64,000 bases of DNA from an uncultured Lachnospiraceae bacterium (lineage in GTDB: Bacteria > Bacillota > Clostridia > Lachnospirales > Lachnospiraceae): contig CANQSA010000002.1 of NCBI GenBank assembly GCA_947626415.1, positions 124,001 to 188,000 on the forward strand, written 5' to 3'. A model generated the notes under the pieces. That model ran no database searches. It was given only the letters and a program-made list of their open reading frames with translations, and was not told the origin of the DNA. A program made the position numbers and the translations under genes. How positions within the stretch are numbered: the first letter of the stretch is position 1; each line of letters opens with the position of its first letter. Below are positions 6,504-64,000 of the stretch, piece by piece.

Positions 6504-8372
6504 CTAGGATAAAACAACCAGATGATAGGGAATCTGTTCTCTGTCTGCGATCACTTTTTCCCTTGTGTGGCAGGTAAATATCAGCAGCTGTCCTTCCGCT
6601 CCGGCCAGCGCTGTCAGGGTATTGCCCAGCCGGACATTGTCATAATGGGCGAAAGTATCATCCAGCAGCAGCGGCTGCTTTTCTGAATAAAGAACATCGG
6701 CGGCTGCCAGACGCAGAGACAGGTAAATCTGCTCGATCGTCCCGCGGCTCAGCCGGGCCGCATCTACCTTTTTCCCGCGGATCGGAACCTGAATATTCAG
6801 ATCCCTGTCAATAAACAGTTCTTTATACTTATTCTGTGTGATCCTGGCAAAATATTCGGAAGCCCTGGCATTGAACCGCAGACCGAATTCCGCGCGGACC
6901 TCATCCATTACTCTCTGTGTATTGAACAGCTCCATTTCCAGTGCCGCAATCTCATCCAGCGCAGCGCTTCTTTGCTTCTGCCAATCCCGGATCTGCTGTT
7001 TCTCATTCTCCAGTTCCGTCAGGCGTATCTTCTGCTGTTCAACCTTCCAATGCAGATTCTGAATCTCTACAGAAAGACTGACGATCGCCTGATTCTTTTC
7101 CTGAACCTTGGCAACAATCTGCGCGTCGATCTCCATGCCGGTCAATTCCTGCTGTTCTTTCTTAACTGCTTCCAGTTCTTTCGCAATCCCGGTCAGCTCT
7201 TCCGAGGTCTTTTCCAGCCGTTCGCTGCACTGCTTTCTTTCCTGCATCAGCGCGTCTGCGGCTTTCAGCCCGTCCAGATCTCTATCCCGATACGTCTTTT
7301 TAATGAAGAAACCGGCAATGGCTGCCGCCAGCAGGATCACCGTAACCGTTGTACTTTGGATCGCATAAGTGCGCTTGGTGCCGATAAAATTATAGATGGA
7401 AATGGCCGCGGCAATCACAAACAGGATCACTAAAACCCATGGGATTGGCAGTTTCTTATTTAGCTGGTTCCGTTTATTGGTCAGGTCCAGTTCATTGACA
7501 ATTCCTTTTTTCTCCAATTTCTCCGCAGACTGTTCCAGTTCTTTCGCCAGTCTGTCAGCTTTCTGTTTCAAAGCCTCCGACTCTTTCTCAAGCCGTTCCT
7601 GCTTTTCCTGAGCCAACTGCAGCATTGCCTGCATTTTAGCCGCCTGATCGGTCTGTACCTGTTCAACCTGCTGGATTCCTTCCAGATCCTGTACGGTCTG
7701 CGTCCGTTCCCTGTCCTTCTCAAATGATTCTGCCTCCAGCTGCGAAATCATCTCTCCGGTTTCTCTGCAGGCCTGTTCATTTTCCGCAAGCTGCCGTTCT
7801 AAAGTCTCCTGATCCAGCTTTTTCAGTATTTCTTCCTGTTCCGCTTTCTGCTGCTGCAGACGGTCGAAGGTTTCCTGCAGTTTCAGTTCCACATTTTTCT
7901 GATTATACAGCTCTGCCGCATATTCGCGCAGGGCAACCGCCAGAGACGCGTCCGTTTCACTGCAAAGCTGTCCGACGCTGACCGTATTCATATAACTGTT
8001 CTCTTCCAGCTCCGTATACAGCGCCGCGATCTCATTCTCCGCAAGCTGCGCGCCGGTCTCCAGATCCGTTACGCGAAAAGACGCAGACTCTTTTCGGAAA
8101 TCCCGTTCCAGGCGATACCACTTCCCACCTGTTTCCAGTTCCATAGACCCGGCATACTGCGCGCCGCCTTCCCATGGTTCATATTTCTGATAGCGGTCGG
8201 TTTCCGCCTCATCCGCGCCGTTCTGACCGAACAGCATGGCTCTGATAAAAGTATGTATCGTGCTCTTTCCCGCCTCGTTTTCCCCATACAGGATGTTAAG
8301 GCCCGGTTCCAGTTCTATATTTTTCTCATGAAACTTACCGAAATGTTGTAATGTTAATAATCTGATTTGCAT
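6504..8372 (-). CDS. YhaN/SbcC-like ATPase with coiled coil and two membrane segments
   Basis: 622-residue ABC-type ATPase of the SMC/Rad50/YhaN group. Walker A GENEAGKS is at residues 30-37. Near the C-terminus are an ABC signature-like LSRGTIEQIYLSLR and Walker B PLLLDDTFAHYD. Between them lie long Glu/Gln-rich coiled coils interrupted in the middle by two hydrophobic stretches (WVLVILFVIAAAISIYNF and TVTVILLAAAIAGFF), so it is probably membrane-tethered with both ATPase halves in the cytoplasm. YhaN-like proteins normally act with an SbcD-like phosphoesterase (YhaO); no such gene is adjacent, since the upstream neighbour is a divergent aminopeptidase. A role in DNA end or membrane-linked DNA processing is inference. 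Start: ATG with GGAGG about 10 nt upstream. Confidence 0.75.
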   Translation of the reverse strand: MQIRLLTLQHFGKFHEKNIELEPGLNILYGENEAGKSTIHTFIRAMLFGQNGADEAETDRYQKYEPWEGGAQYAGSMELETGGKWYRLERDFRKESASFRVTDLETGAQLAENEIAALYTELEENSYMNTVSVGQLCSETDASLAVALREYAAELYNQKNVELKLQETFDRLQQQKAEQEEILKKLDQETLERQLAENEQACRETGEMISQLEAESFEKDRERTQTVQDLEGIQQVEQVQTDQAAKMQAMLQLAQEKQERLEKESEALKQKADRLAKELEQSAEKLEKKGIVNELDLTNKRNQLNKKLPIPWVLVILFVIAAAISIYNFIGTKRTYAIQSTTVTVILLAAAIAGFFIKKTYRDRDLDGLKAADALMQERKQCSERLEKTSEELTGIAKELEAVKKEQQELTGMEIDAQIVAKVQEKNQAIVSLSVEIQNLHWKVEQQKIRLTELENEKQQIRDWQKQRSAALDEIAALEMELFNTQRVMDEVRAEFGLRFNARASEYFARITQNKYKELFIDRDLNIQVPIRGKKVDAARLSRGTIEQIYLSLRLAAADVLYSEKQPLLLDDTFAHYDNVRLGNTLTALAGAEGQLLIFTCHTREKVIADREQIPYHLVVLS

Positions 8373-8503
8373 GGTTCTGCCTCCGTCAGCACATTAGACC
8401 AATTTCTTACGATTTCTTACAGTTTAACACAGGTCTGATATAAAATGCAATTACTTTCCTGTGAGATTCTTGCCAAAAACCGCTGTTAAATCTCCTGCCG
8501 GTG

Positions 8504-8512
8504 TGATATACT
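8504..8512 (+). promoter_or_regulatory. Extended -10 promoter of the M29 aminopeptidase gene
   Basis: TGATATACT, an extended -10, 47 bp before the start codon. The -35 region (GTTAAA) is poor. A divergent promoter for the YhaN-like gene must lie in the same 187-bp spacer but I could not place it firmly. Confidence 0.5.
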
Positions 8513-8559
8513 ATCAGAAAAAAAATGAATGGAACAAACCAGAAAGGATTGTTGAGTTT

Positions 8560-9675
8560 ATGGATCAGAGAATTCAGAAATTAGCGCATAATTTAATCTT
8601 TCACTCCGTCAAGGCGCAGCCGGGCGAAAACGTATATATCCACCATTTCGGTCCTTCGACACGGGAACTGGCAAGGCAGCTAGTCAAGGAAACCTATGCG
8701 GCGGGCGCCATTCCGTTTGTACATTATACCGATACGCGGCTGCAGCGGGAGATTCTCCTTAACTGTACGGAGGCACAGTTAACTCTGATGGCGGAGATCG
8801 ACGGTCTGGAAATGTCTAAAATGGACTGCTATATCGGAGTCCGCGGCTCGGATAATATCGCGGAGCTGTCCGATATCCCGGAAGAAAATATGGCGCTTTA
8901 TGAACGCTGTTATCAGGATCCGGTACACGGGCAGATCCGGGTTCCCAAAACCAAATGGGTTGTACTCCGTTATCCCAATGATTCCATGGCGCAGTTATCT
9001 AATACCAGCCTGGAAGCATTTGAAGATTTTTATTTTGACGTCTGTACGCTTGATTATTCCAAAATGGGAAAGGCAATGGAAGCGCTGGTTGCCCTGATGA
9101 ACCGGACGGACCGGGTGCGGATCACAGGCCCCGGCACAGATCTGCGGTTTTCCATCAAAGGGATCCCCGCGATTCCGTGCGCAGGCAGTATGAATATTCC
9201 GGACGGCGAAGTTTTTACCGCGCCGGTCCGGGACTCTGTCAACGGTACGATCACCTATAATACGCCTTCCGTGCTGCAGGGCTTTACCTACGAACAGGTT
9301 TCCCTGACTTTTGAAAACGGAAAGATCATAAACGCCGCTGCCAATGACACCGCGCGGATCAATAAAGTCTTTGACACTGATGAAGGCGCGCGGTATGTGG
9401 GAGAGTTTGCCATCGGCGTAAACCCTTATATTACAAAACCCATGAAAGATATTCTGTTCGACGAAAAGATCATGGGCTCCATTCACTTTACGCCGGGCCG
9501 GTGCTACGACGAGGCGCCAAACGGCAACGCCTCTTCGATCCACTGGGATCTGGTCCTGATCCAGACGCCGGAATGGGGCGGCGGCTCTATTTATTTTGAT
9601 GAGGTTCTGATCCGGAAAGACGGCCGCTTTGTCATTCCCGAACTGGAATGCCTGAATCCGGAAAATCTGCTTTAA
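8560..9675 (+). CDS. M29-family aminopeptidase
   Basis: 371-residue cytoplasmic metallo-aminopeptidase of the AmpS/PepS/aminopeptidase T family, releasing N-terminal amino acids from peptides; the length is typical. Recognisable stretches are the N-terminal SVKAQPGENVYIH, MNIPDGEVFTAPVRDSVNG (with the acidic metal ligand region), ARYVGEFAIGVNP and a C-terminal HFTPGRCYDEAPNGNASSIH/HWDLV segment with His and Asp ligands. The ATG at 8560 was chosen (AAAGGA about 11 nt upstream); the frame is open 33 codons further upstream but with no start codon supported by a ribosome site, and the promoter lies there. The gene is single and converges on the lipoprotein gene, with stop codons overlapping by 4 bp. 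Confidence 0.9.
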   Translation: MDQRIQKLAHNLIFHSVKAQPGENVYIHHFGPSTRELARQLVKETYAAGAIPFVHYTDTRLQREILLNCTEAQLTLMAEIDGLEMSKMDCYIGVRGSDNIAELSDIPEENMALYERCYQDPVHGQIRVPKTKWVVLRYPNDSMAQLSNTSLEAFEDFYFDVCTLDYSKMGKAMEALVALMNRTDRVRITGPGTDLRFSIKGIPAIPCAGSMNIPDGEVFTAPVRDSVNGTITYNTPSVLQGFTYEQVSLTFENGKIINAAANDTARINKVFDTDEGARYVGEFAIGVNPYITKPMKDILFDEKIMGSIHFTPGRCYDEAPNGNASSIHWDLVLIQTPEWGGGSIYFDEVLIRKDGRFVIPELECLNPENLL

Positions 9676-11633
9676 CCCTGAACCGGGCTTTTCGCGAACG
9701 CTTTGACTTTCGGGAAACACTCGCGCAGGACTTCAAACAGATACGCTGCTTTCGCCTGGATATGCGAGGACTTGCAGGCCTCTGTCCGATCAGAGGTCTG
9801 TTCGGGCCCCATGAAATTTTCAAAGATCCTTGCCCGATCCTCTCCGGCAAAGGTCTTGCTGTACCCGTCTATAAAATATATCTCCGAATCTTCCGCATCC
9901 GGCGTATATTCCGGAAAGGCCGCGGAATCGATATCCATGCCGTCCTCTGTTACATAGGTATAAAAATAATCAAACCCCTTCGGATTTAACGCCATCCATT
10001 TATCGTAATCAAATCCCTCTGCCTTTCCGTCAAGCGTCATGGCGTCGATCTTATATTCCAGATGGTGCCACAGTTCATGATAAAGACAATTTCGGATCAT
10101 ATCCGCGTCATTGGAAGAAATATCCAGTACGATTATATTTTTATCCTCCATCTGCAGAGAATATCCCATTGCCGATGAGATCCCGGTATCATATCCCCGG
10201 ATCAGCGTTCCGCACAGATAAAGATCCAGTCCCTTCATTTCATCATATACAAATTCCAGGAAGAAATTCTCCCCCAGCTTTTTCTCCACAGACTCCAGAA
10301 CTTCTAACGCCGTACCGATCGCTTTTTCGTCTTCTATGGGATTAACGGCAAAATCAGGGAAAAACCGGATCGCGTCCTCTCTCGTATGGATCGTGATCCC
10401 GCACTCCTCTTCCAGTTCACGGATGCGGCGGTTGTTGTCTGCCGGATTTCCCGCCTCGCTAAAGTAATTAGGCTCCGGATCCGATTCCGGCGTATACGCT
10501 GAAATGGTTTCCGTATAGTCCCACAGACCGATTCCTGCATTCTGCTCATTTTCATACGTCATTAACACATAAGGAGAACTTTCACTGTCCAGTCCAAAGA
10601 AACGGTACAGATTCTCTGCGCCGTTCAGCTGCAGAACGCCGGCCAGTTTTCCCTGCTGCCGGTCATAGATCCGTACCAGTTCTCTCTCGCTGTCGTTTTC
10701 CGCATAACTGTCTGTCAGGAAAAAGCGGTCATTGCTGTCATACAAAATGCTTCCGGCTTCATTGTCCTCCTCCAGAGCAAAGCTCGTAACCAGACGATTC
10801 CGGTCCAGATCCACCCAGCGCACAACCGGATCGTCCAGAAACCCGTAAAATAAAATACTGTTTCGGCCGGCTATCCGATTATTGTTACTGTTTCCGATCT
10901 CCAGTTTTCCCGTCTCTATCAGATAATAACCGTCTCCTTCTTTATCCCCGCTTTCACTATATCCATCCACAAACAGGATCTGCCGGTCCTCCAGCATGCC
11001 GGAAAGCGCACAGTCCGCATAGATCTCCTGAAAATCCGTCAGTTTTTCCGCCTGTTCTTTGGAAAAATCATAACGCCAGAGTTCGGTCTGGTTTTCGATC
11101 AGATACAGGACTTCATTGGTCTGATCGAAATAATATTCTCCGATCTCCCGCCCGATCTCACAGGTTTTCTCCAGCTGCCAGTCCGCGTTATAGATCAGAA
11201 CCTGTCCTTCATAAGAGAAACAGTACACCCTGCCGTCCTGCCCCGGTCTGACTGCCAGGCAGGTTTTTTCTTCCGACTGGCAGGGAACCGGTTCCGATAC
11301 CGCTCCGGTCCGGATATTCTTCTTTGCGATATACCATTTTTCCCGGTCGCTCCACCGGCTGTCCGTATCGCAGAGAATGACTGCATACGTATCCTGTTCG
11401 CATTGGAAACCGTCAAACGGCGTCTTGCCCGGAATTTCCTTTTCGTCCATCAGCCGGTATATATGATCCTGTATCTGCTCAAGCGATATCGTCTCTTCCT
11501 TCTGGGTTTCTTCGACTGCAGGAACCGTCTCCGTCTGCTTCTGCTCCTCTTTCCTGTCTCCGCAGCCGCTGCAGGAAAGCAGAACAGCCGCAGCTATCAG
11601 GAAAGCCGTCCATTGTAAAACACCCTTTTTCAT
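9672..11633 (-). CDS. Lipoprotein with beta-propeller-like part and HExxH metalloprotease-like motif
   Basis: 653 residues, not recognised as a named family. The N-terminus is a lipoprotein signal (MKKGVLQWTAFLIAAAVLL, then SCSGC with the probable lipidated Cys), so it should sit on the outer face of the membrane. The middle (~90-400) has repeated short beta-like strands with WRYDFSKEQ and VRIYDRQQG-like turns, suggesting a propeller. Near residues 519-523 is HELWH, a zinc-peptidase HExxH motif, followed about 75 residues later by FAGEDRARIFENF, which could supply the third (Glu) ligand of a gluzincin. It lies 18 bp after the membrane-protein gene and looks co-transcribed with it. Peptidase activity is an inference from the motif only. 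Confidence 0.6.
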   Translation of the reverse strand: MKKGVLQWTAFLIAAAVLLSCSGCGDRKEEQKQTETVPAVEETQKEETISLEQIQDHIYRLMDEKEIPGKTPFDGFQCEQDTYAVILCDTDSRWSDREKWYIAKKNIRTGAVSEPVPCQSEEKTCLAVRPGQDGRVYCFSYEGQVLIYNADWQLEKTCEIGREIGEYYFDQTNEVLYLIENQTELWRYDFSKEQAEKLTDFQEIYADCALSGMLEDRQILFVDGYSESGDKEGDGYYLIETGKLEIGNSNNNRIAGRNSILFYGFLDDPVVRWVDLDRNRLVTSFALEEDNEAGSILYDSNDRFFLTDSYAENDSERELVRIYDRQQGKLAGVLQLNGAENLYRFFGLDSESSPYVLMTYENEQNAGIGLWDYTETISAYTPESDPEPNYFSEAGNPADNNRRIRELEEECGITIHTREDAIRFFPDFAVNPIEDEKAIGTALEVLESVEKKLGENFFLEFVYDEMKGLDLYLCGTLIRGYDTGISSAMGYSLQMEDKNIIVLDISSNDADMIRNCLYHELWHHLEYKIDAMTLDGKAEGFDYDKWMALNPKGFDYFYTYVTEDGMDIDSAAFPEYTPDAEDSEIYFIDGYSKTFAGEDRARIFENFMGPEQTSDRTEACKSSHIQAKAAYLFEVLRECFPKVKAFAKSPVQG

Positions 11634-11651
11634 ACGGTCTCCACCCTTCGA

Positions 11652-13796
11652 TCAAGATTTAAACGTTTCCCGGTAACTCCATATCACCTGATTGCTGCTG
11701 TCCGTAAAAAATCCTTTCCACTGGTCAGCCGCCTGCTGTGCCCGCGCCATCGAGGTTTCCACGCTCTGCAGTTTTCCAAGTCCGTAAACATAGTAATTGG
11801 AATCCTTTTTCTGCAGTTCTTTAATTGTCAGCGTATTCTCTGCCGCCATCTGTATCATTTCCGGCGTCCGTACCTGTATTTTTTCCGAACTGATCACAGC
11901 GGACGCATAGCGCAGCACGACTTCGGTCTGTCTGGCCTCTGTAACGATCGTTCCCAGTGTCACGCCCGAGGTTTCCGGCTCCGTATTGCTTAAAATCTGA
12001 TCTGTTCCCATATTTTTCAGCGATACGGATTTTCCCTTCTGTTTTTTCTGTACCAGATCAAACGCGATCCGCGCGGAGGTAACGTCACAGTTGGTAATCA
12101 GTCGGTTTTTCTTTTGATACTCCTTTAAAACCTGTTTTTCGGAATCAATGATCGTAAGTTTCGAGATCAAAATCTGCCTGCTTCCGTCTATCGATACGAT
12201 ATTGCCTTCTTCTACGGTTCCATAGGCAAAGTCTTCTCCCAAAAATCCAATCGGAACCAGAATTTTTCCTTCGCTTCCTTCCAGGATCAGATCCATACCG
12301 GTCTGCAGATCTTTGATCCGGATCGTATTATTGGTTTCCAGCGCGTCTGTCCAGGCCAGTCTCCGCCCGCTTTCATCAGAGCAATATCCGTCCTGCGGCA
12401 GATCGGGAATCAGCTGAATATAAGTTTTTCCCTGCAGATCTACGCAGTAAATGCCCGGATCCAGATAAATATAGAAAAACTGTTCTGTCAGATAACAAAT
12501 TTTATGAATGCTTTCTTTTAAAACGGAATACGGCCGGTCCGACGGCAGAAAGATCAGTTCCTCCGCCCGGTTGGTCTCACTGTTATAGCGATACAGCACC
12601 ACGCCGTTTTCCCCTTCCAGCGTTCCCCGGTTCATATAGCCGTATACCAGAAAATCTATCGTTCCTTCGTCGGTCACATTCACGATCTCGATCCCATGAT
12701 CCGCGATCCGGTCTCTGATACTCTGATGCGCATCGTCATAGAAAGAAAAGATCCGGGTGATCCGGTTTGCGTCCGTATCCATCAGCCAAAGCTGATTTTC
12801 CTTAACAAAAGCGATCTGCCGGCGATCCCCGCTTGTCCGATAAGCAATCTCCAGGTCGCTGTCGATTCCCAGATTCATGCGGCTCGCAGATACGTTGCCG
12901 ATCTCGGGATTATAGACCTGTTCCATTTTTCTGTCAAAGGAAACCAGATACGTCCTGCCTTCGTGATAGCAGATCCGATAAAATTCCGTTACGTGATATT
13001 GAACGGGAATATCTTCTCCTTCTATTGTTTGTCCGTCGTAGGTTAAAACATAGGAACCGGTTTCACTGTTTATATCCGATATCGTCACCTGCGGTTCGCT
13101 TGTCCGTTCCAGTTTGAAATTATCCCAGGTGATCTGCTTAAAGGAAGCCGTAATATCTACATGTCCCAAATTATTGTTCCGCGCCGTTTCGGAAGGCTCG
13201 ATATACGGGATGATCGACTCCGCTTCCTTCGGATCAAAGGTTTTATCACTGAAATCTTTAAGGAACGCGATCTGCGAAGAGATTGGTGCGTCCGGCAGAT
13301 AGCGCAGTACGGAATAATAGTACAGTGCCTTTTGACTCTCTGTCGCAAGCGTGATCCGCAGCATATAATCATCCAAAGTCCCGATCTCATCCGACAGGGC
13401 AGTCAGAACCAAAATGCCGGTCTCCGTTTTTTCCCAGGCGGGGGATACATAGTGATCGACCTGCGTTCCGTCCATTTCCAGGACGTCAATCGTAACGCCT
13501 GTAATATGGTTCCCAAAGCCTTCTACTTCAAATTCCAGATCCCGTCCGGCTCCCAGGACCGTCAGCTGATCCCGCATATACCGCAGATCCATTTCCATTC
13601 TATAGCCCTGCAGCGTTGTGACCGGGTTTCCTTCAAATCTGGTATGTATGATTGGGAAAGCGGCCTCCTGGATCAGATCTGCTTTTTCCTCCGTTTCCTG
13701 TATAGACAGCTTATAAAAACGGTAGCCGCCGTAGCCGGCGATTACCAGAATGCATAACAGCAGCAAGCCCAGTCCCTTATATATCTCTCGTTTCAT
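11652..13796 (-). CDS. Membrane-anchored propeller-like protein of unknown function
   Basis: 714 residues, function unknown. It begins with a short positive segment and one membrane helix (GLGLLLLCILVIAGYGGYRF). The rest is probably outside the cell and beta-rich, with propeller-like pieces such as NQLWLMDTDANRITRIFSF and IRIKDLQTGMDLILEG. The start is the ATG at 13796 with GAGGAA close upstream; the frame stays open 18 codons further but those codons fold into a small hairpin and have no ribosome site. It is co-transcribed with the downstream HExxH lipoprotein, which has a similar propeller-like part, so the two may work together at the cell surface. Transcription starts at a good promoter and runs through a structured leader of about 115 nt. 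Confidence 0.6.
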   Translation of the reverse strand: MKREIYKGLGLLLLCILVIAGYGGYRFYKLSIQETEEKADLIQEAAFPIIHTRFEGNPVTTLQGYRMEMDLRYMRDQLTVLGAGRDLEFEVEGFGNHITGVTIDVLEMDGTQVDHYVSPAWEKTETGILVLTALSDEIGTLDDYMLRITLATESQKALYYYSVLRYLPDAPISSQIAFLKDFSDKTFDPKEAESIIPYIEPSETARNNNLGHVDITASFKQITWDNFKLERTSEPQVTISDINSETGSYVLTYDGQTIEGEDIPVQYHVTEFYRICYHEGRTYLVSFDRKMEQVYNPEIGNVSASRMNLGIDSDLEIAYRTSGDRRQIAFVKENQLWLMDTDANRITRIFSFYDDAHQSIRDRIADHGIEIVNVTDEGTIDFLVYGYMNRGTLEGENGVVLYRYNSETNRAEELIFLPSDRPYSVLKESIHKICYLTEQFFYIYLDPGIYCVDLQGKTYIQLIPDLPQDGYCSDESGRRLAWTDALETNNTIRIKDLQTGMDLILEGSEGKILVPIGFLGEDFAYGTVEEGNIVSIDGSRQILISKLTIIDSEKQVLKEYQKKNRLITNCDVTSARIAFDLVQKKQKGKSVSLKNMGTDQILSNTEPETSGVTLGTIVTEARQTEVVLRYASAVISSEKIQVRTPEMIQMAAENTLTIKELQKKDSNYYVYGLGKLQSVETSMARAQQAADQWKGFFTDSSNQVIWSYRETFKS

Positions 13797-55326: not shown

Positions 55327-56286
55327 CTACAAAATCCCATACTCATGATATAACTGGTTCCGCATTGCTTCATCTGTTGCTATGGAGACCATATCCGAAT
55401 TTCTCCCGTCTCTCTGCAGGCACAGGATCAGCTGAGCCAGACGACTTTCTCCCTGACTGACTCCTGCCGCCTTCGCCTCTTCCATCATCATATCCAATGC
55501 CAGACACATATCTACCGCTTCCTCCTTTTCTTTCTTTGTTTCCTCCGGAAACCGGCTGTTCGTATGGCTCTCGATCACGCGGATCGCCTCCCGACTCACC
55601 GCATGCGCATGCCGGTCCCGCCGCACCGCCTCTTCCAGCTTCTCCCGGTCCTTCCCGTACCGGAACCACTTAAACACCATCCCCAAGTCCGTTTGGAACA
55701 GATCCAGTTCTTCCTCCTTCATCCGGTGCGGGTCGATCAGGTGGATCTTATAATCCTGGATCCACGGCTCTAACCGCCGGTCCCGGATCTCTAACATCTC
55801 CCGCAGGCTCACCGGGCCGTCCCACGCCTCCTGCGACAGGTTTAAGACTGCCGTGATCACCGGCAGGATCCGTTCTCCCCGGTGGATCCCGGACAGAAAT
55901 TCTTCCGGACCATCTCCGTAGTCGTGTTCCTGCCTGTGCAGCCTCCCGAGTTCCTCCACCTGTTTAGTATAGGACAGGCTGTCATACAGCATGTTCCGGA
56001 CCGGCATAGCGTAATGCGTCTTCGCCTGGGCGTCGATCCCGAGCAGGAGATAGGCTGCCCTTCCATCCTCCCCGGAGGAGAGCACCTTGATCTGGTCCCG
56101 GATCCGTTCCAGGGCAAACCCCTTTCCCGTCTTCCCGTAAGGGGCTGCAAGCTCCACCGGATCCAGCGGGGAAAGCTTCTCCGGGCGGATCTCCTGCCTG
56201 CCCTGGTAGAGCAGCATGTTAAAGAGGTCCGCGAACACCGCGTTGTTCCCGATATACTGTTTTGCGTAAATATCCTTTCTGCCCAT
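55327..56286 (-). CDS. Rpn-family (PD-(D/E)XK) nuclease / transposase-like protein
   Basis: 319 residues of the Rpn/YhgA-like group often annotated as putative transposase; E. coli members are recombination-promoting DNA endonucleases. The first part has AVFADLFNMLLYQG, and the nuclease core would include YLLLGIDAQAKTHYAMPVR followed by the YDSLSYTKQVEELGR region. The C-terminal part is helical and charged, with a Gln/Gly-rich AAGVSQGESRLAQ typical of the family's oligomer tail. It is more G+C rich than the kinase genes beside it. No inverted repeats or target duplications typical of a transposon are seen. Ribosome site GGAGG and a near-perfect promoter are present. Confidence 0.8.
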   Translation of the reverse strand: MGRKDIYAKQYIGNNAVFADLFNMLLYQGRQEIRPEKLSPLDPVELAAPYGKTGKGFALERIRDQIKVLSSGEDGRAAYLLLGIDAQAKTHYAMPVRNMLYDSLSYTKQVEELGRLHRQEHDYGDGPEEFLSGIHRGERILPVITAVLNLSQEAWDGPVSLREMLEIRDRRLEPWIQDYKIHLIDPHRMKEEELDLFQTDLGMVFKWFRYGKDREKLEEAVRRDRHAHAVSREAIRVIESHTNSRFPEETKKEKEEAVDMCLALDMMMEEAKAAGVSQGESRLAQLILCLQRDGRNSDMVSIATDEAMRNQLYHEYGIL

Positions 56287-56426: not shown

Positions 56427-56471
56427 TATAATATTTGATGTTTTTTAATATACTTGTATTTTTTTCACAAC

Positions 56472-56522
56472 AAAAAAAGAGCTGTTATCAGTAACTTATT
56501 TTATACTAAACAACAGCTCTTT
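56472..56522 (-). terminator. Terminator of the kinase/phosphatase operon
   Basis: Arms AAAGAGCTGTT and AACAGCTCTTT (25-nt loop) followed on the minus strand by a run of T (TTTTTTTGTTG). It lies 70 bp past the stop of the PASTA kinase. Confidence 0.8.
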
Positions 56523-56591
56523 AATATTATACTTATTTTTTATGTTTTTTTAACTATATCATCATATATAATATAGCATTTTGAATTATTA

Positions 56592-59500
56592 TTATTTTTT
56601 CTGATATTTAACCCATCTTTGTATATTTTTTATCGTATTTGAAGCAGTTACCTCCGTTTTGGATTCTTTAGCCTCTGTTTTTGTGTGATAATAGGTATAA
56701 ATTAACTGACGATCCCTATAACGGTATTCAACATGAGTTTCAGCCGGAACTTGAGTTGCCTCTCCAAAAAACCATTGATTACACCAACTATGACCACATT
56801 TACTGGATCCGTAGTATCCGTATAAACCTCTTCCGGAATCAACAAGACTAAGCGGGTATGTTAAGATGATTTCATCATAAATATTACATCCATTCCATCC
56901 TTGTGTACCATACCAATAATGATTAGAACTACGATAAATCCAATATCGATAATTTGTATACGCTGCTCTATCTATCACTACTTTCGTTTCTATTTGTCTG
57001 GAATCACTGTTACTAACCGCTGTTCTCGACCAGTCACTCCAGGAAGAATAATCACTCCATTTAGAAGTTGTATTGTAAAGCGTATATCCCGGTTCATACG
57101 ATTTATTTGATGTAATATTTGTCACAAGATCATAAGTCCATTTCTGTTCCACAATCTTTGCTCCGGACGGGATTTTAGAAGCCAGCACCCAGTCTGATAC
57201 CGAGTTTTTTGTCCAGTGTGCATATAAAGTGTGTGCATCCGCGGCTGAAACAACTGTTGACGCCGTAATATTTTTCCCTTCACTTGCTGAAGTATACCAT
57301 CCTAAAAATGTATAGTATTCTCTACTAGGTATAGGTAATTCCCCATACGGTGAATTATATTGAACAGTGACACTTGCTTTTGTTATATTCCCCCCATTTG
57401 GATCAAGAGTCACTCGATACTGATTAACATGCCACTGAGCATATAAAGTTTGATCCTTTCTTAGGGAGTAAATTGTATTTTCCGTCACTTTACTTCCACC
57501 GTTTGATGATGTATACCACCCGTCAAAAGTATATCCTTTTCGAGTTACAGATGGCAAGGTACCATATTTTTCCCCAAAGGTCACTTTCTTTTGATTCAGA
57601 GTCCCAGTACCTCCATTTGCTTTAAATGATACAGTATAAGAATTTGCATTCCACTGAGCATATAAAGTTTGATCCGTTGTTAATGAATAAATCGTATTTT
57701 CCGTCACTCTACTTCCACCGCTTGCTGATGTATACCATCCGCTAAAAGTATATCCTTTTCTGGTTACAGATGGCAAGGTACCATATTTTCTGTCAAAAGT
57801 TACTTTCTTTCGCTCCAGAGTCCCGGTACCCCCATTTGCTTTAAATGATACAGTGTATGAATTTGCTTTCCAACCAGCGTAGAGGGTATGATTGGAAGAA
57901 GTAGTTATCTGCATATTTTTTGTTACCTGGACACCTCCTGATTTTTCCATATACCAACCGGAAAATGTATATCCTGCTCTAATTGGAATCGGAAGTTGAA
58001 GTTTACCATAAGTATCCAGCACATACGCCTGCTTACTTGCAATATTTACAGAACCTCCATTTGCATCAAACGAAACGGTGACTGCCTGTTTTCCTTTACT
58101 TACATAAAGAACAATTGTTTCTCCCGGTAATTGTGCAGTACCCGATTTGGGAGATTGCTCAATAATGGTACCAGCCGGAACAGCAGCATCATAATTTTCC
58201 AGAGCTGTAACTTGAAATCCCTGATCTTTCAATATCTTTTCAGCCTCTTGCCGCATCTTTCCAACAACGTTCGCAACTTCTATTGTTTCACGTCCGCTGG
58301 ATACTATAATCGTTATCTGATCACTTCGTTTTACATTTGTACCTGCAGAAATACTCTGACTGATAACATTACCTTCTGCAACATTTTTATCCTTCTTGTA
58401 CTCTACATCAACTACAAGTCCTTTTTCCGTCAATGTGTTTTTTGCAATATCTTCCTTTTGTCCAACCACATCTGGCATAGAAAAAGCGGCAGGACCGATT
58501 GATACAGTCAGAGTAATGCTTGTCCCTTCTTCAACTTCTGTTCCAGCCTCTACACTTTGAGAAATTACAGACCCATATGCGACTACTTCATCATTTTTTT
58601 CCACAAAATGCGGGTTATTCAATCCTGCTTTTAAAAGTTTTTCAACTGCATCCTCTTTGGTATCCCAAATCACATAAGGAACTGTGGACACTCCATTTTC
58701 AGGAGATTCTATCTTCTTCCCACTGCTGACCATGAGAAGTACAGTCCCATTCTTATCTATATAGGATCCTCCCACAGGTGTCTGCAAGATAATTTTTCCG
58801 GCATTGATATATTCTGATTCTATAGATCCATCTGTTGCCGCCAGCAAATTCCCCTCTTCTATCAATTTTAATGCCTCTTCTTTGTTCAGTCCTTCCACAT
58901 CCGGTACAATTACAATATTGTCAGGAATCACTATTTCTTCCGTAAAATTTGAAAAGTTAATCTTGCCCGTTATCAATAATGCTCCAAATACCAAAATAAG
59001 AGCCATAGCCACCGGTAGGATAATTTTTAACCACAAAGGCCATGCGTATAAGTCTATTTTCTTTATCTTTCCATAGATTCTTTTTACAGGGACATCAGCA
59101 TTCAAATCTTTTATAAACGTTGCAATATCCTGGGTTCGGTCTTCCTTCCGAACATTCATTGCATTCAAAATTGCATTTTCCCTGTTACGTGATAATTTTT
59201 TATTGATTTTATGTGGTTCTACAAGAATTTCCTTTTTTCTATTCTCATATTCGGCGCGCCGCTCCATTGCATCCGGCGGCCTTTTCCCTGTTATCATTTT
59301 ATATAAGGTAGCAGCAACCGAATATACATCTGTATAGGGTCCCTGTTTTCCCTTACTCTGGTATTGTTCTGCAGGAGAGTATCCCGGTTTTATAATTGTG
59401 GTCAAACTTCTGCTGTGTGATGTTGTAGCATATCTGGATGCCCCAAAATCAATCAGTTTAACCTCTCCGGTTTTAGTAAGAAAAATATTATCCGGTGCAA

Positions 59501-60068
59501 TATCTCTATGTATCAGTCCCTCCGTATGTACTACCTGCAAAGATTCCATAATCGGCATTAACATAGCAACTGCAGTATCTTCAGGAATTGTACCTTCTCT
59601 CTTCAAATATTCGGTCAAAGTTTCTCCGTCCAGATATTCCATGATGATATATGCCGTATCATTTTCCTCAAAACTGTCAAAAATTTTAACGATTCCGGGT
59701 TCATTTTGAAATTTTGCAAGATGCTTTGCTTCCTCAATAAACTTTTTCAAACCGTCATTAAATTGTTCGCTTTTTTCGCCTTCAAAAACTTTTACCTGAG
59801 ATCTCCCCGGTATTCTAGTTGAAAATTCACCCGGTAAATATTCTTTAATAGCAACCTTTTGTTCCAGGCGTCCGTCCCATCCAATATAAGTAACGCCGAA
59901 TCCGCCATAACCAAGTACTTTTCCTACAATATATCTTTCATGCAATAATGAACCCGTTTCCAGATGAATTGCTTCTTCAACCTCAGTTCCAACCACATAA
60001 CCGCAGTGCGGACATACTTCAAACTCATTTCCAAACAGTTCCATACATCCTAAACATCTTTGACTCAA
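56592..60068 (-). CDS. Zinc-ribbon Ser/Thr kinase with PASTA, InlB-like repeats and Trp-rich tail
   Basis: 1158-residue membrane kinase. An N-terminal zinc ribbon (CLGC, CPHC) leads into the kinase (~40-300): GYGGFGVTY loop, ATP Lys in VAIKEYL, HRDIAPDN catalytic loop (Lys of HRDxKxxN is Ala), IDFGASR. One helix (LWLKIILPVAMALILVFGAL, ~340-362), then outside: four PASTA domains (~380-665; each with PDVVG-like start), four beta-grasp InlB/Listeria-Bacteroides repeats (GYTFSGWY ... TLYAQW, ~668-950) and a ~200-residue Trp/Tyr-rich end (WSDYSSWSDWSRT, YRYRDRQ, with CGHSWC). PASTA domains bind muropeptides or wall. Start is TTG 60068, with AGGTGA 6 nt upstream, which overlaps the end of the previous gene by its ribosome site. 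Confidence 0.88.
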   Translation of the reverse strand: MSQRCLGCMELFGNEFEVCPHCGYVVGTEVEEAIHLETGSLLHERYIVGKVLGYGGFGVTYIGWDGRLEQKVAIKEYLPGEFSTRIPGRSQVKVFEGEKSEQFNDGLKKFIEEAKHLAKFQNEPGIVKIFDSFEENDTAYIIMEYLDGETLTEYLKREGTIPEDTAVAMLMPIMESLQVVHTEGLIHRDIAPDNIFLTKTGEVKLIDFGASRYATTSHSRSLTTIIKPGYSPAEQYQSKGKQGPYTDVYSVAATLYKMITGKRPPDAMERRAEYENRKKEILVEPHKINKKLSRNRENAILNAMNVRKEDRTQDIATFIKDLNADVPVKRIYGKIKKIDLYAWPLWLKIILPVAMALILVFGALLITGKINFSNFTEEIVIPDNIVIVPDVEGLNKEEALKLIEEGNLLAATDGSIESEYINAGKIILQTPVGGSYIDKNGTVLLMVSSGKKIESPENGVSTVPYVIWDTKEDAVEKLLKAGLNNPHFVEKNDEVVAYGSVISQSVEAGTEVEEGTSITLTVSIGPAAFSMPDVVGQKEDIAKNTLTEKGLVVDVEYKKDKNVAEGNVISQSISAGTNVKRSDQITIIVSSGRETIEVANVVGKMRQEAEKILKDQGFQVTALENYDAAVPAGTIIEQSPKSGTAQLPGETIVLYVSKGKQAVTVSFDANGGSVNIASKQAYVLDTYGKLQLPIPIRAGYTFSGWYMEKSGGVQVTKNMQITTSSNHTLYAGWKANSYTVSFKANGGTGTLERKKVTFDRKYGTLPSVTRKGYTFSGWYTSASGGSRVTENTIYSLTTDQTLYAQWNANSYTVSFKANGGTGTLNQKKVTFGEKYGTLPSVTRKGYTFDGWYTSSNGGSKVTENTIYSLRKDQTLYAQWHVNQYRVTLDPNGGNITKASVTVQYNSPYGELPIPSREYYTFLGWYTSASEGKNITASTVVSAADAHTLYAHWTKNSVSDWVLASKIPSGAKIVEQKWTYDLVTNITSNKSYEPGYTLYNTTSKWSDYSSWSDWSRTAVSNSDSRQIETKVVIDRAAYTNYRYWIYRSSNHYWYGTQGWNGCNIYDEIILTYPLSLVDSGRGLYGYYGSSKCGHSWCNQWFFGEATQVPAETHVEYRYRDRQLIYTYYHTKTEAKESKTEVTASNTIKNIQRWVKYQKK

Positions 60069-60070
60069 CT

Positions 60071-62056
60071 TTACTCACCTCTCCTTTTAAAAACAAACTT
60101 TTGTTTTATATCTGACAGTGCTGCAAGCTGCATTGACTGAATTTTTGATTCAAAGCAAGTAGGATTTACCGGAATTTGTCCGTCATTACACTCACTTATC
60201 ATTAAATAGTTTTGATATACATTTCCCAACATCCAGGCAAGCAGCCTTTCCGCAGCCTCTAATTCTTCTTTTGTCCCGCTGCCAATACTCCATTCATAAA
60301 TAAACTTGCATTGTATCTCATCACTATCAAAATAAACATATGTTTTTTCGTAATTTGTTAATTTAGTTCGAACTTCATTTATCATCATTGTTGATGATAA
60401 TAATACCGGGCTGCTATTGGCTTCATTATTTAAAAACTCCTCTTTTGAACATAACCCGCTAACACTAAAATTTGCTTTTAAAAGGTCCTCACACCGATCA
60501 TCATATGCTATATGGTCAGACGAAAAATCACTGATGCTGTGGAAATAATTATCGGAATAGTTGATGCAACTGGCTCCATTTGTAATTACAAACGCAACCG
60601 GCACTTCTATTGCAAGTGGAACTTGTTTCCTATTATCATAATAATCTGAATACTGATTTAAAAACATTGCGCTTTTAAATTGTTCTGAATCAATCACAGA
60701 ATCCAAATCTTCCGCCTTTTGCAGTATATCCACGGGTAATCCCGTACTTTCAAACAAAGTTGGAAGTTTTCCCTGATCAGCAGCTTCTTGAATCCGCTTT
60801 TCATATTCTGCTTCAGGAATCGCAACTGTCTCAACAGTGATTCCTTCGTTTTTATGTTCGAAATCTGTCCGAATAACCTGCATGGCATCTGTTTCCTGCG
60901 ACCCCTCAGATACAGAATACCAGACAACAATATCAGCCGGATCTAAATATCCTTTTTTTCGTTCATTTTGATATGTATTATATACAACAACCGTTCCGAT
61001 AAGGAGAATGATAACCGCAGCAGCAATTCCAAAAAAGCGTTTCAAATTTCTTCTCTTTTTTTCCTTTGCTAACGGAAGTACTTTCCGTTCACCGTTAATT
61101 GCACGCAAAAATTCCTGCACTGTTTGAAAGCGCATATGTTTTTCTATAGCCATTGCCTTCATGATAGCATTGCTTAAATTTTCAGACAGCAATGGATTTA
61201 ATAAATGCGGCGGCACAACTTCATCCTTATTATCCCTTCTATCTGTAGCCTCATCCGGTTTCACACCGGTTAACATCGCATATAAAGTTGCCCCTAATGC
61301 ATAAATATCAGTCCATGGACCGAGTGTATTATTTTTATCATACTGCTCTACAGGGGAATACCCGGGTTTTAAAATAACATCAATTATTTCATCTGTACTG
61401 TCTGCCAGTTTTGCTGCTCCCAAATCCAATAACTTAACTGACTGACGATCTCTGATTCCGTTAGCGGAACAGATATAAATGTTATCCGGAGCGACATCAC
61501 AATGAATGATATTTTGTTCATGAAAAGACTTTAAAGCATTCCCTACTTCATTAGCTACCATCAATGCGAAATCCATATCTGCTTTACCACCGGATTTCTT
61601 CAAATATTCTCTTAAGGTTTCTCCCTGGAGAAGTTCCATCACAATGTAAGCCGTATTATTTTCTTCAAAAAATTCAAATACATTCGGTATACTTCTATGG
61701 CTTCCAAACTTTGCCATATTTCTTGCCTCTGCAAGGAACCGCTTCTTTCGATACTCAAATTCTTCCCTTGACTTTTTTGCAATAATCAAGTTTTTCAAGC
61801 CTACCGCTCTTGTAGCAAGACGACTTACAAAAAACTCTTTAACCGCAACAATAGTCTCCAGTTTTTTATCCCATGCCCGATAAACAATTCCAAATCCTCC
61901 TGATCCGACTGCCAGCCCAAGTATATAGCGGCCTGCCAGTATAGTTCCCGGGGCTAAATGAATGGGCTCTATGGCTTCTTCTTCAATGTTTCCGCAATAA
62001 GGACAAACTTGATATTGATCATCATATTCCCCAAAACACGAATAACATCTTTTCAT
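60071..62056 (-). CDS. Zinc-ribbon Ser/Thr kinase fused to a solute-binding-protein-like domain
   Basis: 661 residues. Zinc ribbon C4, C7, C18, C21; kinase domain (~40-300) with AVGSGGFGIVY, VAVKEFF, HCDVAPDN (Asp kept, Lys changed to Ala) and LLDLGAAK (Gly-Phe of DFG changed to Leu-Gly); membrane helix (~338-358, FFGIAAAVIILLIGTVVVY). The outside part (~365-661) resembles family 1 ABC solute-binding proteins: IVVWYSVSEGSQETDAM, ITVETVAIPEAEYEKRIQE, LPTLFESTG and VPVAFVITNG. So a sugar- or peptide-binding fold may switch the kinase. Start ATG 62056 follows GGAG; 17 earlier codons belong to the FHA gene end. It overlaps the FHA gene by 4 bp (ATGA). Confidence 0.85.
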   Translation of the reverse strand: MKRCYSCFGEYDDQYQVCPYCGNIEEEAIEPIHLAPGTILAGRYILGLAVGSGGFGIVYRAWDKKLETIVAVKEFFVSRLATRAVGLKNLIIAKKSREEFEYRKKRFLAEARNMAKFGSHRSIPNVFEFFEENNTAYIVMELLQGETLREYLKKSGGKADMDFALMVANEVGNALKSFHEQNIIHCDVAPDNIYICSANGIRDRQSVKLLDLGAAKLADSTDEIIDVILKPGYSPVEQYDKNNTLGPWTDIYALGATLYAMLTGVKPDEATDRRDNKDEVVPPHLLNPLLSENLSNAIMKAMAIEKHMRFQTVQEFLRAINGERKVLPLAKEKKRRNLKRFFGIAAAVIILLIGTVVVYNTYQNERKKGYLDPADIVVWYSVSEGSQETDAMQVIRTDFEHKNEGITVETVAIPEAEYEKRIQEAADQGKLPTLFESTGLPVDILQKAEDLDSVIDSEQFKSAMFLNQYSDYYDNRKQVPLAIEVPVAFVITNGASCINYSDNYFHSISDFSSDHIAYDDRCEDLLKANFSVSGLCSKEEFLNNEANSSPVLLSSTMMINEVRTKLTNYEKTYVYFDSDEIQCKFIYEWSIGSGTKEELEAAERLLAWMLGNVYQNYLMISECNDGQIPVNPTCFESKIQSMQLAALSDIKQKFVFKRRGE

Positions 62057-62727
62057 TCTTCTTTCTCCTTTTTGTCTATTTCTTCCCACGAAAATGATTC
62101 TCCGCAAAATGGAACAAACATAAATTTACTGTCTCCTAATTCGATTACGTCATAGGAAGTCAGTTTTTGAACACTGGTAACCAAATTATCATTTAAATAT
62201 GTAATTCCACTGCTGTCACCGGGCTGAAGATAAAAATCTCTTTTTTTGGGTTCATACACAATCATTGCATGCTTTATACGTGATATACTACCGTCATCAG
62301 TTATGGCAATTCGATTTTCCGTACTTCTGCCAATAGAATTCTGACCCGCATAAATAAAAAAACTTTTTCCGAAATGATACCCCTTGATACATACTATCCA
62401 TCCAACGACCGGATCTGATAAATTTTCATATCGTTTTTCATCAGGCTGCTGTCCGGCTACCTTATTAAAATATCCTATTGTTTTTTCTTCATTGCTGGCA
62501 GACGCTTTTTTTACAACTTCTTTCAGTTTGTCTTTCTGGTTGATTACGATTTCTTCTGTCACGGAGTCGCCTTTATCATAACTTGTTTTATTTTTCCTTC
62601 CCATAAAGCGGCTGCTTTCAGAAACAAATTGACTCCCATTACAATGCGGACAGCTTTTGTATTGTTTTTTGTCATAAAAATGTCCGTTTTCACATTGAAT
62701 TACATCTTCTTGTCTTACACTACTCAT
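62053..62727 (-). CDS. FHA-domain phosphothreonine reader with zinc-binding N-terminus
   Basis: 224 residues, cytoplasmic. The N-terminus has CENGHFYDKKQYKSCPHC, a likely single zinc site like the kinases' ribbons. A Lys/Glu-rich linker follows, then the FHA domain (~105-210) with NSIGRSTENRI (Gly-Arg-Ser), DDGSISRIKHAMI (Arg-His core) and DSSGITYLNDNLV (Asn region). It would bind phosphothreonine made by the neighbouring kinases, giving the module a reader. It overlaps the downstream kinase by 4 bp, and the PP2C gene precedes it by 18 bp. Confidence 0.85.
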   Translation of the reverse strand: MSSVRQEDVIQCENGHFYDKKQYKSCPHCNGSQFVSESSRFMGRKNKTSYDKGDSVTEEIVINQKDKLKEVVKKASASNEEKTIGYFNKVAGQQPDEKRYENLSDPVVGWIVCIKGYHFGKSFFIYAGQNSIGRSTENRIAITDDGSISRIKHAMIVYEPKKRDFYLQPGDSSGITYLNDNLVTSVQKLTSYDVIELGDSKFMFVPFCGESFSWEEIDKKEKEE

Positions 62728-62745: not shown

Positions 62746-63543
62746 TTATTTTATGCCTATCAATGCTATTGTCATATTATCTCTGGATTTTTGATTGCTT
62801 TTTGCGTTTTTCTCCGCTTTCATTTCCAGCGCCTGAACAGCTTCCTCTATATTTTTAAAATTACTCAGGATTCTTAAAATTTCCGAATCCGTAACCGTTT
62901 TATATAAACCGTCCGACATAATAATAATCCTATCTTCTTTTTCCAAATCCAACGGAATTTCCGAGTAATCTATCAATTCAAGATTCCCGATTCCCAAGAA
63001 ACTAATCAAGGCCTCCCCCCTCTTACTTTCTTTGTAAAATTCCGTTTCATCTAATAACCCCGCTTTTCTTTTTCCGAGCAGCACAGTATAATAATTTTGA
63101 TCTTGCGTCAGTTGAACAATCTCTCCATTTCTCATCAAATACGCTCTGCTGTCTCCTACAGAACACCATATAAGTTTTTTTCGATTGACTAAAACAGAAA
63201 CAACTGTACTGCCTGCTTTAAGCAGCTTTCCATCGCTTCCTTTCAGACCTGAAATCATTTTATCGATCTTTTTAGCAGCGCTGATCAACATTTCTTTTTG
63301 TTCCCCTGCAAAATAATTATTTTCATACTGCCTTAAAAAAGTTTCTACTGCTAATTCACTGGCTGCCTTTCCGCCTTCCTGTCCTCCCATTCCATCGCAT
63401 AAAACAAGCAACCCCTCATCTTGTTTCATACTATATCCAAAACTATCCTGCTGCGTATCCCTATCTCCAATTACAGATAACGCAGCAAGTCTAAATACAG
63501 AATTTTCATCTTTTATTAAATAATGGTCTTTATGAATTAACAT
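62746..63543 (-). CDS. PP2C-type Ser/Thr phosphatase
   Basis: 265-residue PPM phosphatase that removes phosphate from Ser/Thr with two metal ions. Motifs: LCDGMGGQEGGKAASELA (motif with metal Asp and Gly pair), WCSVGDSRAYLMRNG, IIMSDGLYKTVTD and NMTIALIG at the end with the last metal Asp (RDNMT). RDTQQDSFGYS near the start supplies the first Asp. Start: ATG 63543 with AGAGGA 7-8 nt upstream; 9 extra codons upstream overlap the end of the next phosphatase. It probably opposes the two kinases of the same operon. Confidence 0.93.
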   Translation of the reverse strand: MLIHKDHYLIKDENSVFRLAALSVIGDRDTQQDSFGYSMKQDEGLLVLCDGMGGQEGGKAASELAVETFLRQYENNYFAGEQKEMLISAAKKIDKMISGLKGSDGKLLKAGSTVVSVLVNRKKLIWCSVGDSRAYLMRNGEIVQLTQDQNYYTVLLGKRKAGLLDETEFYKESKRGEALISFLGIGNLELIDYSEIPLDLEKEDRIIIMSDGLYKTVTDSEILRILSNFKNIEEAVQALEMKAEKNAKSNQKSRDNMTIALIGIK

Positions 63544-63557
63544 ATCTGTTCCTCTTT

Positions 63558-64000
63558 TTATTGATTCCATACAGCGATTGCAGAATAATTATCCATATCT
63601 TTTTCTATTCCATTAGTCTGAACGATTTGAACCATATTGTTTAACCATTCTTCAACCGTTTCTGCTTTTTTTAATTGTGCACACATTTCCTTTTCCTCGA
63701 TTAATTCCCAAAATCCATCCGAACATAAAAGGAAAGCCTGACATTTTTTCAGCGGAATTGGACTCATAAGTTCAAACAAGTTTTCGTCCCACTCGATTCC
63801 CAACACTCTTAATAAGAAATTACGATCCGGATGATTTCTTATCTGATCCTCCCTGATTTCCTTTGATAAAACCAGCATTTGAGGAATACTATGATCCAAT
63901 GTTCTTATTTTAACTTTATTCTTATAGAAGACATACGCCCGAGAGTCTCCAATATGTCCGATATACGCATTTTTGCCGTCAGTAACTACCGAAACTCCAG
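63558..64000 (-). CDS. Second PP2C-type phosphatase (5' part outside window)
   Basis: The C-terminal half of another PPM phosphatase; its start lies beyond base 64000. The frame is open to the edge and carries YIGHIGDSRAYVFYKNK, FLLCSDGFWELIEEKEM and a final DNYSAIAVW, all in the order of PP2C. Reading it as a separate 113-residue gene from an internal TTG is wrong, because the motif GDSRAY lies upstream of that codon. It is followed 14 bp later by the first phosphatase. Two PP2C in tandem, with different sequences, may dephosphorylate different targets or one kinase each. Confidence 0.85.
   Translation of the reverse strand, partial: GVSVVTDGKNAYIGHIGDSRAYVFYKNKVKIRTLDHSIPQMLVLSKEIREDQIRNHPDRNFLLRVLGIEWDENLFELMSPIPLKKCQAFLLCSDGFWELIEEKEMCAQLKKAETVEEWLNNMVQIVQTNGIEKDMDNYSAIAVWNQ

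Follow-up and report, generated by a model that had tools for sequence, protein, structure and literature searches.

A PASTA kinase with a variable tryptophan/tyrosine-rich tip in a T7SSe-like operon of an uncultured Lachnospiraceae bacterium

What does a membrane kinase sense when its extracellular part runs on past its PASTA domains, and which cellular system does such a kinase serve? Both questions are raised by a gene on the minus strand (56592-60068) of a 64,000-nucleotide stretch from an uncultured Lachnospiraceae bacterium (GCA_947626415.1, contig CANQSA010000002.1, positions 124,001 to 188,000; hereafter the window, meaning the whole stretch analysed). Our analysis suggests that its product probably serves a T7SSe-like type VII secretion system (T7SS) as its membrane sensor kinase, being part of a phospho-switch whose outermost module, the tip, would set what is sensed. 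The open reading frame (ORF) begins with TTG, is open over its whole length and encodes a TseD-like PASTA kinase of 1158 residues (ORF list, translation and Pfam). From the N terminus, all on the minus strand, it comprises a zinc ribbon with cysteines 5, 8, 19 and 22 (60000-60056; sequence and alignment of relatives), a Ser/Thr kinase domain (residues 47-331; 59076-59930; PF00069, E 1.4e-39) in which the VAIK, HRD and DFG motifs were all found in the alignment of relatives, a transmembrane helix predicted by a hydropathy scan at about residues 342-364 (58977-59045), four PASTA domains (residues 384-659; 58092-58919; PF03793 in four stretches, E 4.8e-52), four Flg_new or InlB-type repeats (residues 661-953; 57210-58088; PF09479 in four stretches, E 1.2e-66) and the tip, a tryptophan/tyrosine (W/Y)-rich frame delimited by a tail profile (residues 953-1158; 56595-57212). 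This tail holds 11 tryptophans and 22 tyrosines among its 206 residues, and its variable centre (about residues 1043-1102; 56763-56942), which has the lowest column identity and a predicted local distance difference test score (pLDDT) of 68-91 per block, includes the motif CGHSWC (residues 1091-1096; 56781-56798). A preliminary description of this DNA had already noted four PASTA domains, four beta-grasp repeats and a Trp/Tyr-rich tail with CGHSWC, all of which were confirmed by Pfam and by composition, and the extra modules beyond PASTA also recur in relatives; new here are the zinc ribbon, a gene start only 2 bases past the stop codon of a sister kinase, and a T7SS operon that runs on past the window.

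Within the window this operon, also on the minus strand, encodes the sister kinase (60071-62107; PF00069 and PF13416), whose N terminus is Cys-rich, whose ectodomain resembles solute-binding proteins (PF13416, E 6.3e-7) and whose HRD motif reads HCD, an FHA protein with a Cys-rich N terminus (62053-62727; PF00498), in which the NGT part of the phosphothreonine motif, as read from the translation, is degenerate, a PP2C-type phosphatase (62746-63570; PF13672), and another PP2C-type phosphatase, incomplete because the window ends within it (63558-63998, whole at L002:10559-11293; ORF list and Pfam). Followed beyond the window (loci L002 and L003), the operon encodes, from its start, an EssC/TseC ATPase, a small protein at the place of TseB, two WXG100 proteins, a 736-residue lipoprotein-like protein, a DUF6382-FHA protein, an 84-residue zinc-ribbon protein, a 568-residue Mbeg1/lipase-like protein and three small proteins, and it ends with the two PP2Cs, the FHA protein and the two kinases. 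The TseC frame of 1529 residues combines FtsK_SpoIIIE domains with an FHA domain (61.7 bits) whose phosphothreonine motif (GR, T/SxxH, NGT) was read by eye; the WXG100 pair, counterparts of TseA and TseA2 with 101 and 98 residues, scores 39.2 and 35.9 bits against a Pfam cut-off of 27.3; and the DUF6382-FHA protein (65.9 and 51.4 bits; SRKH and NGT by eye) fits TseJ. Candidates were also found for the ubiquitin-like TseB (an 84-residue ORF at the right place, with a weak Pfam ubiquitin match, E 0.13), for the small single-helix protein TseK (an 84-residue ORF that has a zinc ribbon and is hydrophobic near its N terminus) and for TseI, which in T7SSe is a large Ig-like protein with a signal peptide and a C-terminal helix (the 736-residue ORF, with sub-threshold Big_2 and no C-terminal helix seen by eye), while the membrane kinase TseD and the PPM phosphatase TseF have counterparts in the two kinases and the two PP2Cs. 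The Mbeg1/lipase-like protein and the small proteins that follow it (L002:11330-13876), two of them over the WXG100 cut-off, resemble a reverse lipase substrate accompanied by its partners. Downstream of the PASTA kinase gene, an RNA hairpin followed by a U run forms a likely intrinsic terminator (56470-56522, minus strand; -22.8 kcal/mol for 56460-56530, z -5.86), a hairpin missing from our terminator pattern scan, which has a loop limit of 8; since so strong a hairpin follows it, the kinase gene is probably the last of its operon.

In the parts covered here, the article on T7SSe (PMC11217815) names the kinase TseD, the phosphatase TseF and the DUF6382-FHA protein TseJ and suggests phospho-control. 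Our locus is similar to that system in its TseC with an FHA domain, paired WXG100 proteins, small, possibly TseB-like protein, PPM phosphatase, DUF6382-FHA protein TseJ and membrane Ser/Thr kinase, and it differs in having two kinases and two PP2Cs and in a kinase with PASTA domains, Flg_new repeats and a W/Y-rich tip. The terms PASTA, InlB and zinc ribbon are absent from the main text of that article, and tip exchange is not described in the parts covered. Judged by its sequence, the locus fits a T7SSe-like type VII secretion operon, and the described T7SSe kinase would gain PASTA domains, InlB-type repeats and a W/Y-rich module without known family.

The same association was seen among relatives, which came from one scan of a genome collection with the kinase alignment and amount to 77 distinct loci from the best 80 of 171 confirmed matches. 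Counted over all 77 loci, with duplicates kept and at most 10 kb of flank per side, the ectodomain of the sister kinase occurs in 73, a PP2C in 63, the FHA protein (ZnR-FHA) in 58, the DUF6382-FHA protein in 22 and the N part of TseC in 19, and the sister kinase ends at most 300 nucleotides upstream of the PASTA kinase in 54 of 75 loci. When 50 of the 77 loci were queried, two of them from one genome, a TseC orthologue was present in 36 of 49 genomes, and for 22 of these 36 the coordinates are compatible with a same-direction gene at most 35 kb upstream, provided that both lie on one contig. Among 84 aligned PASTA kinases the catalytic Lys and the HRD Asp are each kept in 82 and the DFG Asp in all, and all four motif residues of the sister kinase are intact in 75 of 75. 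All four cysteines of the zinc ribbon are likewise present in 84 of 84 relatives, for C5 and C8 partly by construction, as the search pattern includes part of the ribbon. At L009:7472-10168, four PASTA domains and a tip are carried by a degenerate kinase that lacks the catalytic Lys and the HRD Asp, next to another kinase; this protein is likely a pseudokinase form.

The tail itself, judging from its relatives and its predicted structure, is not a chance sequence, because an iterated tail profile recovers the frame in 47 proteins of the loci covered and AlphaFold2 folds the tail at a mean pLDDT of 90.6, with high confidence at both ends and lower confidence in the centre. Conservation follows a similar course, in that the first half and the strands past the centre are better kept than the centre; pair identity reaches up to 0.33 at tail residues 41-50, falls to 0.09-0.17 over 91-160 and stands at 0.29 at 171-180. 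No Pfam or NCBIfam family matched the tail, nothing was found among PDB sequences up to E 10, plasmid and phage sequences gave no match (best PHROG insignificant, E 0.83), and a viral search with the window tail returned four pattern matches, none a relative. The model of the tip is all-beta; Foldseek gave 0 of 684 hits at E<=0.001, and with VIA the best Z of 3.5 (63 aligned, root mean square deviation 3.8) was no significant match to a solved structure. A thrombospondin-type Trp-Arg ladder, prompted by a repeated WSxWS ... VETRT.YRYR pattern, was not supported. A 70-residue repeat unit (37 rows) folded only to pLDDT 77 with a predicted template modelling score of 0.52, and its model gave 0 of 15 Foldseek hits at E<=0.001 and 0 of 37 VIA comparisons with Z 2 or more.

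A further comparison covered the complete PASTA kinases of the relatives, 76 in number once kinases with an open 3' end were left out and duplicates were counted once (L056 equals L040, L060 equals L041, L055 is a near copy of L054 and L002 is the window). According to profiles built in this analysis, these carry 1 to 14 PASTA domains and 0 to 7 Flg_new repeats each, with any Flg_new in 30 of the 76. Tips of the window type, with the W/Y-rich frame, are found on 37 of the 76 and have a median W+Y content of 15.0% compared with 5.7% in other tips, which include Big_2 with LRR_5 (L072), DUF6273 (L070) and RCC1 (second kinase of L078). A PG_binding_1 domain is inserted in the frame in L103 and L113, and by eye a similar insert occurs in a PASTA protein of L133; these inserts point to the wall as a target in those three cases. 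Among 72 kinases (4 of the 76, with tips under 40 residues, left out), 92 pairs share a kinase identity of at least 0.75, and 41 of these have a tip identity below 0.30, a limit that nearly coincides with the maximum of 0.297 seen in 200 shuffled tips (mean 0.14). In this comparison the L048 kinase appears with an identity of 0.66 to that of the window, an artefact of its ORF start; the actual value is 79%.

The clearest pair is L045 and L046, whose kinase domains are 97% identical and whose tips are 11% identical. Their DNA is 82.6% identical over 7557-13068, the last Flg_new repeat ends at 13066, and the match picks up again past the L045 stop codon, where a short W/Y-rich remnant matches the end of the L046 tip with 84% identity across 25 residues. 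Read most simply, the L045 stalk received a new tip, and the end of the old one stayed behind. We take this as one clear exchange event; an assembly error in these metagenome-assembled genomes (MAGs) is possible, though the contigs are long (402,686 and 124,585 bases). Such a combination of conserved stem, exchangeable end and displaced remnants resembles CdiA, for which modular receptor-binding regions and polymorphic C termini are described in the covered parts of two articles (PMC5371414, PMC3150448); unlike in CdiA, the exchangeable end sits on a kinase, and a toxin/immunity pair is not shown here. Tandem PASTA kinases with different tips within one locus were observed in L041, L077, L078, L088, L111 and L113, and in the L111 pair the kinases are 95% and the tips 56% identical. 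Separate tip ORFs downstream of the kinase in L057 and L074, considered as spare cassettes, are instead broken genes or errors, because a three-frame reading reveals one kinase gene in which the frame shifts and a stop codon comes too early; many other tip matches downstream of kinases belong to neighbouring tandem kinases or to other immunoglobulin-like (Ig), leucine-rich repeat (LRR) or DUF6273 proteins. While T7SSe and its kinase have already been published, the literature searched, with subscription journals mostly outside it, holds no account of an exchangeable tip or of this architecture.

How could such a kinase work? The kinase domain would be cytoplasmic, and the stalk of PASTA and Flg_new repeats would carry the tip through the wall, where a ligand on the wall, a surface or a neighbour might alter kinase dimerisation. 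The kinase would then phosphorylate threonines on TseC or its partners, the FHA domains of TseC and of the DUF6382-FHA protein would bind these phosphothreonines and switch secretion on, and the PP2Cs would reset the switch, so that an exchange of the tip would change the trigger and leave the switch itself untouched. Ligand, substrates and direction of control we infer, and the phospho-switch reading draws on two parallels, each as described in the covered parts of its source. In the threonine phosphorylation pathway of the type VI secretion system (PpkA, PppA and Fha; PMC5995506), a membrane kinase, a phosphatase and an FHA protein are likewise encoded with a secretion system, although that is a different machine and domain types alone are in common; and IreK drives transcription of T7SSb in Enterococcus faecalis (PMC10765036). 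More tentatively, the PASTA kinase dedicated to T7SSe-type systems of gut Clostridia may bear a recognition tip that is polymorphic and recombines, so that secretion in each strain would be triggered by a different signal from surfaces (wall type, neighbour or kin); specificity would then evolve as cassettes are swapped at a fixed boundary behind the stalk, out of a pool shared with secreted surface proteins.

To our knowledge, the triggers of type VII secretion are known in few cases only. Near-identical kinases with different outer ends would give a direct handle on what the T7SS senses, by use of the tip as bait or by removal of the kinase, and they suggest a way in which a secretion machine could be tuned to different surfaces.

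Several results weigh against the sensor reading. The small single-helix protein TseH was not identified among the ORFs of the operon and TseI is only guessed, and the locus has two kinases, one more than is named for the published T7SSe. In 13 of the 49 genomes there was no TseC at E<=1e-40; these are mostly MAGs, in which loss and missing data are indistinguishable. Kinase activity is apparently not always needed, because the degenerate L009 kinase keeps its PASTA domains and tip and one motif residue is absent from a few others. A genome of the same genus (G012) is without such a kinase, so the system is accessory. On the kinase tree (75 rows, with L048 left out and L104, L112 and L121 scored as W by eye for the tree only), the W frame requires at least 15 changes, compared with a minimum of 17 and a mean of 25.1 in 300 shuffles; as this is fewer than in any shuffle, tips are both inherited and exchanged. 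Finally, T7SS kinases are not the only carriers of the tip. In 397 genomes of the family, taken to be Lachnospiraceae, the frame was found at E<=1e-8 in 10 genomes and 11 proteins, 5 of which are PASTA proteins and 6 of which show no PASTA in the stretch covered.

A wall-spanning role has been proposed for EsaA, or for the ectodomain of the EssB pseudokinase. By this precedent, the main competing explanation makes the ectodomain chiefly a wall-spanning structural part of the T7SS, with the tip serving only as its anchor, in the wall or on another component. The L009 protein, with four PASTA domains and a tip on a degenerate kinase, and the PG_binding_1-like inserts in three tips would suit this explanation, and the fully conserved motifs of the sister kinase mean that signalling could be its task. 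However, nearly all PASTA kinases retain the HRD Asp, and a fixed anchor would not need wholly different tips on near-identical kinases, so that we consider a mainly structural role unlikely.

The preliminary description had proposed that the extra modules let one kinase reach a second ligand, such as another cell, a wall polymer or a host surface; a reading derived from this makes tip and repeats an adhesin for a host or another cell, with signalling secondary. The description had asked whether the tail accompanies adhesins, and this was borne out, since the tail ends large secreted, adhesin-like proteins with Flg_new and BspA-type LRR (LRR_5) repeats; one of the proteins lacking PASTA has an M23-like start by eye, and the best identity between a secreted and a kinase tip is 0.59 (L011 and L046). 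The frame in secreted proteins therefore indicates tip modules common to kinases and surface proteins. In most relatives, however, the tail belongs to a kinase encoded in a secretion operon, and nothing points to a host ligand, which makes adhesion as the main function improbable.

The view, suggested by the preliminary description, that modules were added to a growth kinase of the PknB type was not supported. With PknB, PrkC, Stk1 and IreK it shares the kinase, a single membrane helix and PASTA repeats, it has the kinase-plus-PASTA composition of Stk1/PknB in Pfam, and its best NCBIfam match is the Stk1/PknB equivalog NF033483. Unlike them, it has a zinc ribbon, an additional stalk and tip and a T7SS operon context, and it falls below the NF033483 cut-off (368.4 bits against 450). 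Searches of the source genome gave eight matches to PASTA, spread over two genes, and five to the kinase domain; the second PASTA kinase, on contig 10, passes the same cut-off with 634.8 bits and adjoins PP2C-like and RsgA-like genes (both named by eye). Because the cut-off is missed and a separate Stk1/PknB exists, the window protein is, as judged from these scores and its context, a member of a T7SS-linked kinase family and not the housekeeping PknB/Stk1, and an ordinary growth kinase with extra repeats is very improbable. Scarcely credible is a polymorphic effector in the manner of CdiA toxins: the replacement with a displaced remnant does resemble CdiA-CT and orphan arrangements (PMC3150448, parts covered), but tips are often Ig, LRR, RCC1 or PG_binding_1 modules, the window tip is all-beta, and a terminator-like hairpin, with no small immunity-like gene, lies downstream in the window.

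A few observations concern the surroundings. Just downstream of the kinase gene lies a 319-residue ORF (55327-56286) with no Pfam or NCBIfam match, Rpn/transposase-like by eye only. Elsewhere in the source genome, a cluster of TerD-like, kinase, vWA-like and PP2C-like genes was recognized by eye (L044, G000 contig 19) and is probably unrelated to the T7SS, and a further kinase with tetratricopeptide repeats is clustered with FHA-like and PP2C-like proteins (L042, G000 contig 17), with a weak Flg_new match nearby.

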